Made by a program: the position numbers and the translations under genes
Virus record (IMG/VR): IMGVR_UViG_3300020156_000057
Location: 1-39,047 of that record
DNA: 39,047 bases
Strand: one strand, 5' to 3'
From: a virus
Part shown: positions 559 to 38,671 of the stretch, piece after piece
How positions within the stretch are numbered: the stretch's first letter is position 1
How the letters are laid out: every line of letters begins with the position of its first letter
The notes under the pieces: model-generated
What the model saw: only the letters and a program-made list of their open reading frames with translations
What the model was told of the DNA's origin: nothing
Database searches by the model: none

Positions 559-672
559 CGACCGAGCGTAGCGAGGGAGTACACCTCCAGAGAATTTCTC
601 AGAGAAAATAACCGAAAAGTAGGAAAAAGACACATATTTACTAGTTTTAGTCATTTTTATACAAAAACACTA

Positions 673-701
673 TTGACAATGAATTACCAAAATGGTATAA
701 T
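673..701 (+). promoter_or_regulatory. consensus sigma70 promoter for the virion operon
   Basis: TTGACA (673-678), a 17-base spacer and TATAAT (696-701) form a perfect consensus, with TGG directly before the -10 box making an extended -10 element. It lies about 120 bases upstream of the small terminase start and reads into the + strand virion arm. The same combination occurs on the - strand at 38047-38075. Confidence 0.93.
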
Positions 702-707
702 ATACTT

Positions 708-732
708 ATAGAGTAAAGCAACAGAACTCTAT
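708..732 (+). promoter_or_regulatory. 5' stem-loop of the rightward transcript
   Basis: ATAGAGT (708-714) pairs with ACTCTAT (726-732) around an 11-base loop. It begins where transcription from the consensus promoter should start, so the mRNA would carry a terminal stem-loop, possibly protecting it from decay or acting as a recognition site. A stem-loop sits at the same place in the leftward leader. Confidence 0.55.
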
Positions 733-747
733 TAACTTCTATAATCA

Positions 748-756
748 ATACAGTAT
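748..756. promoter_or_regulatory. ATACAGTAT palindrome in the rightward leader
   Basis: The 9-mer ATACAGTAT (arms ATAC and GTAT) lies about 40 bases into the rightward leader and is followed by GACGTTATACTATA. The same 9-mer followed by TAACGTTAGAGTATA occurs in the leftward leader at 37974-37982. The shared order suggests a common operator or RNA element; this is inference. Confidence 0.4.
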
Positions 757-822
757 GACGTTATACTATAAACACATGCTGCTTAACTCACCTAGAATTA
801 TTCATTCATAAGGATAATACCA

Positions 823-1320
823 ATGCCGCAGTGGAAAACGTCAAATGGACAGCATTATCTCAAGGCCCTATTCTACGAAGAGGCTTTGGAGCCGGGGCGT
901 GACTATGTTGTCTACACATTAAAGCTCTATGACCATGAAGGTTATCCGAGTATTCATCGTTTGTATGTCGAAACCAATGATCCCACCGAATACGAGTTCG
1001 CAAAGAAGTATTTCGATGGATGGGCACATTGGAAGAAGATTAAACAGTGTACGTGGTTTAAGCCATACTACGACGCGATGAAGGAAGAACTCGAAGTATC
1101 CATTCGTTCTCGTGCTCTCAAGAAACTACGTCAGCATGAGAATTCCGAGAAAGCCGGGGTACAGGTTAATAAGTACCTTCTCGACGGTGGTTGGATCGAA
1201 AAGGACGATAAACGCGGGAGACCCTCGAAAGAGACAATCAAACGTGAAGCAGACAAACTGTTCAAGGATCAAGAGATCATTGACGAGGATTATGGTCGTA
1301 TTCTATTAAATGTCAATTAA
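823..1320 (+). CDS. terS: terminase small subunit (putative)
   Basis: This 165-residue protein is likely the small terminase subunit, which recognises phage DNA and feeds it to the large subunit for packaging. Support is mainly positional: it is the first gene of the virion operon and overlaps the large subunit start by 11 bases. Residues 131-145 contain RGRPSKETIKREAD, a basic stretch often seen in small terminases of podoviruses. The rest is helix-rich and charged. The ATG follows an AAGGATAA ribosome site. Small terminases diverge quickly, so the family match is weaker than the context. Confidence 0.75.
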   Translation: MPQWKTSNGQHYLKALFYEEALEPGRDYVVYTLKLYDHEGYPSIHRLYVETNDPTEYEFAKKYFDGWAHWKKIKQCTWFKPYYDAMKEELEVSIRSRALKKLRQHENSEKAGVQVNKYLLDGGWIEKDDKRGRPSKETIKREADKLFKDQEIIDEDYGRILLNVN

Positions 1321-2854
1321 CAAACACGAAGAGATTAAACGGGCAGCAGAAGCAGACCTAGTAACCTTCATTAAATTAGTACACCCTCAGAGAGTATTGG
1401 GTCATATTCATGAGGAACTCATTACTTGGTGGTGTCGTCAGGATTGTAAGTCACACCAGTTGGTTCTACTCCCTCGTGACCATGGTAAGAGTGCTATGGT
1501 TGCTTATCGAGTGGCATGGGAAATTACGAGGAACCCTAGTCTTCGTGTCCTCTATATTTCGAGCACTGCTAACCTCGCAGAGAAACAGCTCAAGTTTATA
1601 AAGGATATTCTCACCTCTCGCATTTATCGTCGTTATTGGCCGGAGATGGTACATGAGGATGAAGGTAAAAGGGAAAAGTGGACGAACAACGAAATTGCCG
1701 TTGACCATCCAATCCGCAAAGCCGAAGCCATCCGTGATCCAACGATCTTCACTGCCGGTCTCACTACCGGTATTACCGGAATGCACTGCGATATTGCCGT
1801 GCTTGATGACGTTGTTGTAAAAGAGAACGCCTACACGGAAGAAGGTAGGGACAAGGTTAAACAACAGTATTCTCTCTTGGCGTCTATTGAAGGTGCCGAT
1901 GCGAAGGAATGGGTTGTTGGAACGAGATACCATCCCAAGGACCTCTACGATGATTTGTTGTCTACGACTGTGGATACATACGATGAAGAGGGTAATCTCC
2001 TTGAAGGCCAAGAGGAACACCTCTACGAAGTGTACGAGCGCGTGGTGGAAGACATTGGGGATGGCACCGGGCAGTTCTTATGGCCCCGTCAGCAGCGCAG
2101 TGATGGCAAATGGTTCGGCTTCGATCCTCGCATCCTAGCGCAGAAGAGAGCCAAGTACCTCGATAAAACTCAGTATAGGGCTCAGTACTACAATGATCCC
2201 AACGATATTGAGTCCGCCGGTATCCAGAGAGAGTTCTTCCAATACTACGAGAAAGAATTACTCAAGATTGAGGGCGGAGCGGTATACTTCAATAACCGTA
2301 AACTCAATGTCTTTGCCGCAGTAGACTTTGCGTTCTCTCTCGAAAAGAAAGCCGACTATACATCAATTGTTGTTGTCGGTGTTGATGCGAAGCACAACTA
2401 CTACGTTCTCGACATTGCGCGTTTCAAGACGGATCGTATCGTAGAGTATTTCAATCAGATACTCCTCCTCCACAAGAAGTGGCACTTTAGAAAGCTTCGA
2501 GCGGAAGCAACCTCGGCAGCGACAATTCTCGTCAAGGACCTCAGAGAGAACTACATTCGGCCTTTCGGCCTTGCACTCTCAATTGATGAGGTTAAACCGC
2601 AGACGAAGAAAGAGGATCGTATTCATGCTGCTTTGTCTCCCCGGTATGAGAACCGGCAGATATGGCACTATCGTGGTGGCAACTGTGAAATCCTCGAAAA
2701 CGAGTTAGTCTTACAGAACCCCCCACATGACGACGTGAAGGACTCTCTCGCTTCCTGTATCGACATTTGTGTCCCTCCATCACTGGAATACTACGGTCGT
2801 CCTCGGGGATATAATAATCAGTTTGTTCACTCCCGATTTGGAGGCATAAATTAA
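1310..2854 (+). CDS. terL: terminase large subunit
   Basis: A 514-residue packaging motor combining ATPase and nuclease. The N-terminal ATPase shows a terminase-style Walker A, LLPRDHGKSAM, at residues 53-63, and a Walker B, DIAVLDD, at 161-167. The C-terminal RNase H-like nuclease begins at about residue 335, with AAVDFAF (Asp340) as the first metal-binding site and HDDVKDSL near the end as the probable last one. Length is normal for T7-like TerL. The ATG overlaps the terS stop, implying coupled translation. It would dock on the portal encoded two genes downstream. Confidence 0.95.
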   Translation: MSINKHEEIKRAAEADLVTFIKLVHPQRVLGHIHEELITWWCRQDCKSHQLVLLPRDHGKSAMVAYRVAWEITRNPSLRVLYISSTANLAEKQLKFIKDILTSRIYRRYWPEMVHEDEGKREKWTNNEIAVDHPIRKAEAIRDPTIFTAGLTTGITGMHCDIAVLDDVVVKENAYTEEGRDKVKQQYSLLASIEGADAKEWVVGTRYHPKDLYDDLLSTTVDTYDEEGNLLEGQEEHLYEVYERVVEDIGDGTGQFLWPRQQRSDGKWFGFDPRILAQKRAKYLDKTQYRAQYYNDPNDIESAGIQREFFQYYEKELLKIEGGAVYFNNRKLNVFAAVDFAFSLEKKADYTSIVVVGVDAKHNYYVLDIARFKTDRIVEYFNQILLLHKKWHFRKLRAEATSAATILVKDLRENYIRPFGLALSIDEVKPQTKKEDRIHAALSPRYENRQIWHYRGGNCEILENELVLQNPPHDDVKDSLASCIDICVPPSLEYYGRPRGYNNQFVHSRFGGIN

Positions 2855-30453: not shown

Positions 30454-30618
30454 TTATAACAATCTATCTAGGAGGTCTTCATCAATTAAACCTTCGTTGA
30501 ACAAAACTTCAAATGCCTCGGTAACTGTAACGTCAAACATCTCTAGAATTTCTTCAAACGAATAGTCGTCGTCAATGTATTTCTCGATGAACTCCTCAAT
30601 CTTCGTCTTCATCAACAT
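30454..30618 (-). CDS. small acidic helical protein
   Basis: A 54-residue strongly acidic protein, almost entirely helical (KTKIEEFIEKYIDDDYSFEE, ILEMFDVTVTEAFEVLF). The sequence contains a pattern like a small helix-turn-helix (SFEEILEMFDVTVTEAFEVL), though the negative charge argues against direct DNA binding. The ATG at 30618 has AGGA eight bases upstream; an in-frame ATG at 30642 would extend it by eight residues. It overlaps the end of the upstream basic gene. Confidence 0.62.
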   Translation of the reverse strand: MLMKTKIEEFIEKYIDDDYSFEEILEMFDVTVTEAFEVLFNEGLIDEDLLDRLL

Positions 30619-30751
30619 AATCGTAGTCCTGTGGTTGTTCATTACGATCTTTTACAGATCGCTTAATTTTAGGGAGGGCGTCCCTTTCGTGCTTGCGACG
30701 ATGGTCCAAACGACGTTTTGAACGCTTCTCTTTTTCTTCCGGTGTAGACAT
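30596..30751 (-). CDS. small basic/acidic two-part protein
   Basis: A 51-residue protein. The first 35 residues are very basic (KEKRSKRRLDHRRKHERD) and the last 12 very acidic (DYDYVDEDED). The ATG at 30751 follows the secreted-protein gene, and the stop lies inside the next gene. Composition suggests nucleic-acid contact with a self-shielding tail, but no family was recognised. Both ends are tightly packed with neighbours, which supports it as a real gene. Confidence 0.6.
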   Translation of the reverse strand: MSTPEEKEKRSKRRLDHRRKHERDALPKIKRSVKDRNEQPQDYDYVDEDED

Positions 30752-35962: not shown

Positions 35963-35991
35963 ACTATACCATGTATTTGCATCAAAGTCAA
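35963..35991 (-). promoter_or_regulatory. leftward promoter for DNA polymerase
   Basis: On the - strand, TTGACT (35991-35986), a 17-base spacer and TATAGT (35968-35963) with TGG before the -10 box form a near-consensus extended promoter. Its -35 box overlaps the helicase stop codon (35990-35988). It probably boosts the polymerase/SSB/nuclease genes independently of the far leftward promoter. Confidence 0.85.
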
Positions 35992-37576: not shown

Positions 37577-37771
37577 TTACACTCCGGGATTGACGTTGTT
37601 CCATTTGGGATCATAACCAATGTCGTACCAGTAGTATCCTTCTTCGAAGTCGTTCTCTTCGTAATATCCGTCTTCTTCATCGTCTTCATCAAACACCCAC
37701 TCGGGAACTTCCATTTCTTCGATTTCAAATTCGTTCGGGTTTAACATCTTCATCATCCTGTTCCAAATCAT
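37577..37771 (-). CDS. small highly acidic early protein
   Basis: A protein of up to 64 residues, dominated by Asp, Glu, Tyr and Trp: about 20 acidic residues versus three basic ones (EFEIEEMEVPEWVFDEDDEE, then YYEENDFEEGYYWYD). Internal ATGs at 37756, 37753 and 37747 are possible; the last has AGGA eight bases upstream. It overlaps the zinc-ribbon gene end. Composition recalls DNA-mimic inhibitors such as Ocr, but no homology was established. Function is unknown. Confidence 0.6.
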   Translation of the reverse strand: MIWNRMMKMLNPNEFEIEEMEVPEWVFDEDDEEDGYYEENDFEEGYYWYDIGYDPKWNNVNPGV

Positions 37772-37925
37772 ACAACGTTTCGTTTACAAACTCAAAACAC
37801 TCCTCGCAGATCAAATTACCGGGGAACATGTCGTCCGCGAGGTATCTTCCGTGATAGTAGTTTTCGGGATTTAAGGCGAGGTATTTGTCATTAGTTCGCT
37901 CGCACACATGACATCTATGTGACAT
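37725..37925 (-). CDS. small zinc-ribbon-like early protein
   Basis: A 66-residue protein with two Cys pairs: CHVC (residues 5-8) and LICEEC (about 39-43), a zinc-ribbon arrangement, followed by an acidic tail (YDLEQDDEDVKPE). It is the first gene after the leftward consensus promoter, with a leader of about 115 bases, and GGAG precedes the ATG. First position suggests an immediate-early role such as host or transcription control; this is inference from position and fold. Confidence 0.7.
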   Translation of the reverse strand: MSHRCHVCERTNDKYLALNPENYYHGRYLADDMFPGNLICEECFEFVNETLYDLEQDDEDVKPERI

Positions 37926-37971
37926 AATGAGACTCCAATAGAGATACTCGTACAGAGTTATACTCTAACGT

Positions 37972-37984
37972 TAATACTGTATTA
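37972..37984. promoter_or_regulatory. TAATACNGTATTA palindrome in the leftward leader
   Basis: TAATAC-T-GTATTA on the + strand is a perfect 13-base palindrome with a one-base centre. Its 9-base core also occurs at 748-756 in the rightward leader. In both leaders it is followed, in the transcription direction, by an ACGTTA-containing stretch. It may be a shared operator or RNA signal. Confidence 0.45.
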
Positions 37985-38017: not shown

Positions 38018-38044
38018 ACTCTAGTAGTGTTATTCTTCTAGAGT
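38018..38044 (-). promoter_or_regulatory. 5' stem-loop of the leftward transcript
   Basis: ACTCTAG and CTAGAGT (38038-38044 and 38018-38024) form a 7-bp stem with a 13-base loop, starting about where transcription from the leftward promoter begins. Placement and CTCTA content mirror the rightward stem-loop at 708-732. Confidence 0.55.
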
Positions 38045-38046
38045 AT

Positions 38047-38075
38047 ATTATACCATAGAAAGGTGAGGTTGTCAA
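38047..38075 (-). promoter_or_regulatory. consensus sigma70 promoter for the early arm
   Basis: On the - strand, TTGACA (38075-38070), 17 bases and TATAAT (38052-38047) form a perfect consensus with extended TGG before the -10 box. It reads leftward into the zinc-ribbon, acidic, helicase and polymerase genes. Fourteen bases around the -10 box (TGGTATAATATACT) are identical to the rightward promoter. Confidence 0.93.
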
Positions 38076-38080
38076 TAGGA

Positions 38081-38671
38081 TTAATTCCTCATCCCATGAT
38101 ACCCTCTACCCTTCTCCACCTTCCAATGAAAACCAAACTCTGCATGAGGTTCGGAAGCATACTTTGTAGTTACCTCATACCCTTGGGATTTACAATTATC
38201 TCTATACCACTGAGGCTTGTGTATCCACATATATGCTTGGACAATAGGTGGTTTTTTGTCTTTGTGAACACTCTCTTGGTCACGACAACAAACGTATACC
38301 TTCTCTCTGTCCATTATACGAGTTACGTTATTGAGCACGTCCAAACGATGAACCATATGCGCATCGACAGCGTATAACTCACCATGAACTCTAGCCCTAT
38401 GAGACTCTAAATAGTCATTAACTAAGTATGGATAAAATCCATTTGACTTCATGGTATACTCAGGCATGAGAGTTATTCCCTTACCCATGTAGATACAGTC
38501 TTTTAAGGTGTTCTCATGATTGAACCCACCGAACATCATATTATCCCAAATGAAGATTAATATGTTGTCGTACTGATCCAAGTTCTTGAAATCTGGTGTA
38601 TACGCTTGTCTCGTTAGTAGGGTTTGCTTTGTCTTGTAAGCTCGGATACCGTCTTTCAAGGCGACACTCAT
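38081..38671 (-). CDS. gamma-glutamylcyclotransferase-like early protein
   Basis: A 196-residue protein resembling the GGCT/AIG2 fold. Landmarks: ILIFIWDNMMFGGFNH (37-52), in the place of the VYGTL-x-G-xNH loop; YMGKGITLMPEYTMKSNGFY (61-80), typical of the flG-x-a ... yxL-x-g-yP strand pair; and VHGELYAVDAHMVHRLD (95-111), the V-x-GE-y-v region. The catalytic Glu expected a few residues after LD is Asn114 here, and the YGTL loop is altered, so the classical reaction may be absent. It lies upstream of the main leftward promoter. Confidence 0.62.
   Translation of the reverse strand: MSVALKDGIRAYKTKQTLLTRQAYTPDFKNLDQYDNILIFIWDNMMFGGFNHENTLKDCIYMGKGITLMPEYTMKSNGFYPYLVNDYLESHRARVHGELYAVDAHMVHRLDVLNNVTRIMDREKVYVCCRDQESVHKDKKPPIVQAYMWIHKPQWYRDNCKSQGYEVTTKYASEPHAEFGFHWKVEKGRGYHGMRN

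Follow-up and report, generated by a model that had tools for sequence, protein, structure and literature searches.

Two promoter-like sequences in a viral contig of 39,047 nucleotides (the whole of the DNA analysed, here called the window) are, with a probability of roughly 0.7, strong host sigma70-type extended -10 promoters of a Zobellviridae-like phage without a recognisable RNA polymerase of its own. The first, R, would drive the virion arm, beginning with the small terminase gene, and adjoins the predicted genome end; the second, L, is internal to the leftward arm and would start the primase/helicase module behind a gene of the GGACT family. Judged from their sequences, both are ordinary promoters for host polymerase in a phage of a known kind; a phage-specific shared motif is added to them. 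A reading of the two leaders as a single, genome-wide RNA switch is not supported.

Phage and genome layout

The window is classed as linear in its IMG/VR record. Genes read rightward specify the terminase, portal, major capsid, tail and internal virion proteins; those read leftward specify, among others, primase/helicase, DNA polymerase, a Cas4-type exonuclease, MazG, ThyX and ribonucleotide reductase (Table 1). The large terminase (TerL) shares 60-66% identity with its counterparts in Zobellviridae that infect Lentibacter, Celeribacter and Roseobacter. Also in keeping with that family are the two convergent arms and the homologous genes for terminase, portal, major capsid and tail proteins. 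By gene content it is a Zobellviridae-like, short-tailed phage (a podovirus of marine type). Zobellviridae genomes have two opposed arms, and SIO1, a member of the family, was reported to be without an RNA polymerase (PMC6775973). The window phage has two such arms, and no RNA polymerase gene was found among the annotated or scanned ORFs (PHROGs matches) of the contig, from which the early end is missing. A near-search of phage records with the window DNA gave no match, and a scan of a genome collection with the small terminase gave no relative.

A conserved palindrome-like element, rGAATTTCTGTgAGAAAATmT..GGTGY, was aligned across 15 Zobellviridae-like phages and in the window adjoins promoter R. 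In Lentibacter phage ICBM2 it ends at the start of the annotated direct terminal repeat (40749), so that the element probably marks the genome end; it is probably a terminase recognition or cut site. Its position suggests that the physical end of the window phage lies near 580, which is some 90 bp away from promoter R.

Table 1. Positions of the features discussed, in the window and in related phages.
Feature	Genome	Position	Strand	Remark
Conserved element	window	580-610, aligned 591-610	best on -	adjoins R promoter
Promoter R, TTGACA-N17 (ends ATGG)-TATAAT	window	673..701	+	ahead of small-terminase-like gene, virion arm; 12/12 hexamer bases, TG extension
TGGTATAATATACT, sub-clade -10 region + ATAC extension	window	693..706	+	R copy
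Inverted repeat ATAGAGT-N11-ACTCTAT	window	708..732	+	arms 708-714/726-732; at predicted start of R transcript
Predicted R leader	window	708-822	+	start site to next start codon
AATACAGTAT-G-ACGTTA, candidate DNA operator	window	747..763	+	R copy
Small-terminase-like gene	window	823..1320	+	phrog_8035; first gene of virion arm
Large terminase	window	1310-2854	+	directly after small-terminase-like gene
P3, TTGACT-N17 (ATGG)-TATAGT	window	35963..35991	-	about 28 nt before DNA polymerase gene
Primase/helicase	window	37604-35988	-	after 66-aa CxxC gene
66-aa protein with CxxC pairs	window	37725..37925	-	next gene after L; 40% identical homologue in same place in L332
Predicted L leader	window	38040-37926	-	start site to next start codon
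AATACAGTAT-TA-ACGTTA, candidate DNA operator	window	37966..37983	-	L copy
Inverted repeat ACTCTAG-N13-CTAGAGT	window	38018..38044	-	about -4 to +23 from predicted L start
Promoter L, TTGACA-N17 (ends ATGG)-TATAAT	window	38047..38075	-	internal to leftward arm
Gamma-glutamyl cyclotransferase-like (GGACT), 196 aa	window	38081..38671	-	PF06094, 8.2e-10; upstream of L
Further leftward ORF	window	39027-38671	-	upstream of GGACT-family gene; reaches towards contig end
Conserved element	L130	1440-1459
Conserved element	L406	5746-5765
Conserved element	L426	9602-9621
Conserved element	L123	38756
Conserved element	L125	8687
Conserved element	L122	about 40729-40749
R promoter	G002			ATGGTATAATATACTTAGG
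R promoter	G003			ATGGTATAATATACTTGTAG
Early promoter	G003			ATGTTATAATATACATGAGG
Polymerase gene promoter	G003			ATGGTATGATATACTAAGG
R promoter	G008			ATGGTATAATATACATAAGG
Early promoter	G008			GGTGTATAATATACATGAGA
GCAGGGG/CCCCTGC promoters	L123	38681, 30175
GCAGGGG/CCCCTGC promoters	L125	8612, 37512 (- strand)
GCAGGGG/CCCCTGC promoters	L124	38928 +, 28106 -
GCAGGGG/CCCCTGC promoter	L122	28619
GCAGGGG/CCCCTGC promoters	L162, L169, L183, L188, L191, L192

Promoters R, L and P3

TTGACA-N17-TATAAT with an extending TGG, described for both leaders in the sequence-only reading, is present in R and L, which are the sole two perfect matches in 39 kb. Both continue with ATACT after the ATGG of the spacer and the -10 hexamer, and the identical TGGTATAATATACT reported from both leaders has exactly two occurrences in the window. 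As in sigma70-type promoters, the hexamers are separated by a distance within 16-18 bp and the sites are intergenic and upstream of a gene; the consensus of the host, whichever bacterium that is, may differ. The lytic phages SIO1, P12053L and those of Lentibacter, likewise without an RNA polymerase of their own, share the two convergent arms and these consensus hexamers, also 17 bp apart, at arm heads and internal genes. The proposal that both arms are read by host polymerase is supported by these promoters, by the finding of no phage RNA polymerase gene and by the SIO1 precedent (PMC6775973). P3, a third related promoter, is weaker and is followed by neither stem nor palindrome.

With the start predicted after a six-base gap from the -10 hexamer (A708 for R and 38040/38039 for L), both leaders measure about 115 nt and contain 28-31% G+C. 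The suggestion that each lies 110-120 bases before the first gene of its arm stands as to the distance to the next start codon and falls as to L, which is not first in its arm. Two leftward ORFs, one of the GGACT family, precede it. The window therefore does not include the head of the early arm, the contig ends within that arm and L is an internal promoter. The order of cyclotransferase-like gene, small CxxC protein and primase recurs in L332 without a separate leader; L331/G002 show synteny at the L site, with a perfect promoter whose leader, about 100 nt long, is a different one, and L328 has a near-consensus promoter and a leader of about 20 nt before the CxxC gene. The best primase/helicase matches in IMG/VR reach no more than 58% identity, and no close sibling of the L region was found among them. 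The leftward genes of L406 begin about 1.6 kb beyond the small terminase gene, on its other side, and resemble none of the window genes compared with them.

The R promoter is conserved in place in L130, L406, G002, G003 and G008. G002, G003 and G008 all have the form TATAATATAC at their R-type promoters, G003 and G008 have it at early-arm promoters as well, and TATGATATAC precedes the DNA polymerase gene of G003. ATAC follows the -10 hexamer in eight of 125 promoter-like sites of other relatives, most of which look by sequence like parts of the conserved large-terminase reading frame and not like promoters. Since the same form recurs in related genomes and ATAC is scarce in the others, the identical 14-mer TGGTATAATATACT is a sub-clade promoter form, which relatives retain at promoters on both arms; TATAATATAC, as judged from the three other genomes that have it, is the promoter form of the window phage's sub-clade. 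SIO1 and P12053L use TGTGTATAATAGTCTTAACAAGTCTCCCCTGC where this sub-clade has ATAC. The core TTGAC-N14-ATGGTATAATATA is common in phages generally among the matches listed in an IMG/VR scan, and because those matches include many ATGGTATAATATA-type promoters from phages that are not related, the extension alone could partly be convergent.

Leader turnover and RNA structure

The closest relatives on the R side, L130 and L406 (TerL 81% and small terminase 65-66% identical), keep TTGACT-N17 (ATGG)-TATAAT followed by ATAG. Their leaders contain neither stem nor palindrome and carry other inverted repeats, GAATTCG...CGAATTC and CAATAAG...CTTATTG; a retained promoter without stem and palindrome is the very combination that the sequence-only reading had named as refuting its shared element. 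In G002, G003 and G008 the R and early leaders share no word beyond chance (P at least 0.98), and the same is true of the early and virion-head leaders of ICBM2 and CRP-5 (P at least 0.96), while their early and internal leaders are borderline (P 0.06-0.07). Shared leader elements as a habit of the family were tested and rejected: SIO1 and P12053L alone clearly share a leader, within one arm, where 22 nt after the -10 hexamer (16 nt from the predicted start) are identical between the promoter that heads the virion arm and the one that follows the capsid gene.

Two other motifs were seen near promoters of the relatives. GCAGGGG or its reverse complement CCCCTGC stands mostly 12-18 nt after the -10 hexamer of related-phage promoters (Table 1), and several relatives besides SIO1 and P12053L have it at the same offset. 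L130 (999-1355) and a matching stretch of L406 contain an AGGTCAG-N6-CTGACCT-like dyad array, with five copies in L130; non-coding and ahead of the virion promoter, the L130 array is like an operator or a packaging site.

A stem-loop at the expected transcript start had been proposed for both leaders. R has a 7-bp stem from its predicted +1. The first arm of the L repeat (ACTCTAG, 38044-38038) lies at about -4 to +3 and is mostly untranscribed; the predicted start thus falls inside this arm, so that the L transcript could not form the stem, and no 7-bp inverted repeat is left in L from the predicted +1. Each repeat alone has a P of about 0.02 when a lenient start is allowed. Folding of the whole leaders is unremarkable against shuffles (z -1.68 for R and -0.57 for L over 115 nt; +0.88 for L over 80 nt), and the bases with which the palindrome letters pair are not the same in the two folds predicted. 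Structure prediction found no fold common to R and L, and consensus folding of the R, L, L130 and L406 leaders gave no base pair. Rfam gave no match at the gathering score, and the sole match to the leaders at E<=1 is a meaningless CsrC fragment.

These results bear on whether both leaders carry a common RNA element, either for processive antitermination of the HK022 put kind or as a stabilising 5' stem-loop. The R stem speaks for it, as does a slight excess of structure over shuffles in 20 arm-head leaders of the window phage and its relatives (mean z -1.18, P 0.003), a trend not clearly above that of neighbouring non-coding DNA (P 0.06). The put RNAs are about 70 nt long, with two stem-loops and sequence similarity (PMC9378689). 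Like putL and putR, R and L would place related leaders in two opposite transcripts; they differ in having no common fold, no second shared stem and one unstructured leader, and two related stem-loops in both early transcripts were not found. A 5' stem near the transcript end is predicted for R and not for L. With L lacking a stem from +1, and with neither a consensus structure nor an Rfam match, we regard a common RNA element as very improbable. The broader claim of one regulator or RNA element for the whole phage finds no support, given the replaced leaders of relatives, the lack of a common fold and the internal position of L. As a separate observation, the arm head of MEP401 (L127, 42158, - strand) has a predicted 80-nt leader of -22.3 kcal/mol (z -4.9), far beyond shuffles.

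The shared palindrome composite

The palindrome followed by an ACGTTA stretch, the remaining likeness proposed for the two leaders, is real as a pattern: AATACAGTAT-N1-2-ACGTTA occurs twice in the window and in none of 100 shuffles, and ATACAGTAT has exactly two occurrences. Both copies have the same orientation, each downstream of a perfect promoter, and the L palindrome is a perfect AATACAGTATT. In shuffles of the two leaders the composite arose in 0.03% (P=0.0003, under a rule set after the motif had been seen), more likeness than is predicted if R and L are two promoters and nothing else. The likeness downstream of the promoters has slightly under even odds of being chance between AT-rich leaders or the remnant of an old duplicated promoter cassette, now decayed. 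It is patchy: local alignment of the leaders outside the promoter gives P=0.051 against dinucleotide shuffles, the longest common word is 10 nt (P=0.036), and the -10 hexamer and palindrome are 46 nt apart in R versus 64 nt in L. The rarity of the composite in shuffles weighs against chance, and we consider the AATACAGTAT/ACGTTA composite somewhat more likely to be a real phage-specific site than not.

If functional, the composite is most likely a phage-specific DNA operator. Because its palindrome, 9 to 11 bp long, has a one-base centre and so cannot fold into a hairpin, the composite would act as a site on DNA rather than as RNA. As in operator systems, the same palindromic site stands at both promoters and is otherwise scarce in the genome. 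A comparable arrangement is the lambda OL/OR type, in which repressor operators are paired at divergent phage promoters. The likeness is in one short palindrome at two oppositely directed promoters; the window differs in having one site per promoter, downstream of the start, and no repressor identified. That AATACAGTAT-N1-2-ACGTTA is an operator with which a regulator from phage or host controls the replication and virion promoters together, for example by a roadblock that stands about 40-70 nt past the start, is a tentative alternative, favoured by the two oriented copies, the shuffle result and the perfect L palindrome. A 62-aa ORF (30454-30642, - strand) with a weak YlxM/p13-like HTH match (PF04297, 23.9 bits, cut-off 22.7) could encode the regulator. 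Against an operator, P3 has no site, the promoter spacing differs by 18 nt, the motif rule was post hoc, and neither the site nor an equivalent site pair is conserved in any relative examined; an IMG/VR scan for the composite returned 32 stretches, mostly unrelated and none behind a good promoter. It seems unlikely, though conceivable, that a phage-specific regulator at AATACAGTAT/ACGTTA times the virion arm and replication module jointly on host polymerase, with a different site in its place in each related lineage.

Two other readings of the leaders were discarded. A LexA box at ATACAG was ruled out by eye, as no CTG-N10-CAG is present, and a shared leader peptide was ruled out because the 1-nt spacing difference puts the common letters in different frames. 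AGTATT, half of the AATACAGTATT palindrome, also occurs with AATACT as five hexamers within 70 bp at 435-504, a density reached nowhere else in the window (any-hexamer P 0.02).

Significance

No published promoter analysis was found for this Zobellviridae-like group in a literature search. With R and L as probable host-polymerase promoters, the analysis sets a real shared motif apart from an over-extended whole-genome reading and provides a testable promoter map for a group of phages without an RNA polymerase of their own, in which the promoter core persists and the leaders behind it are exchanged.
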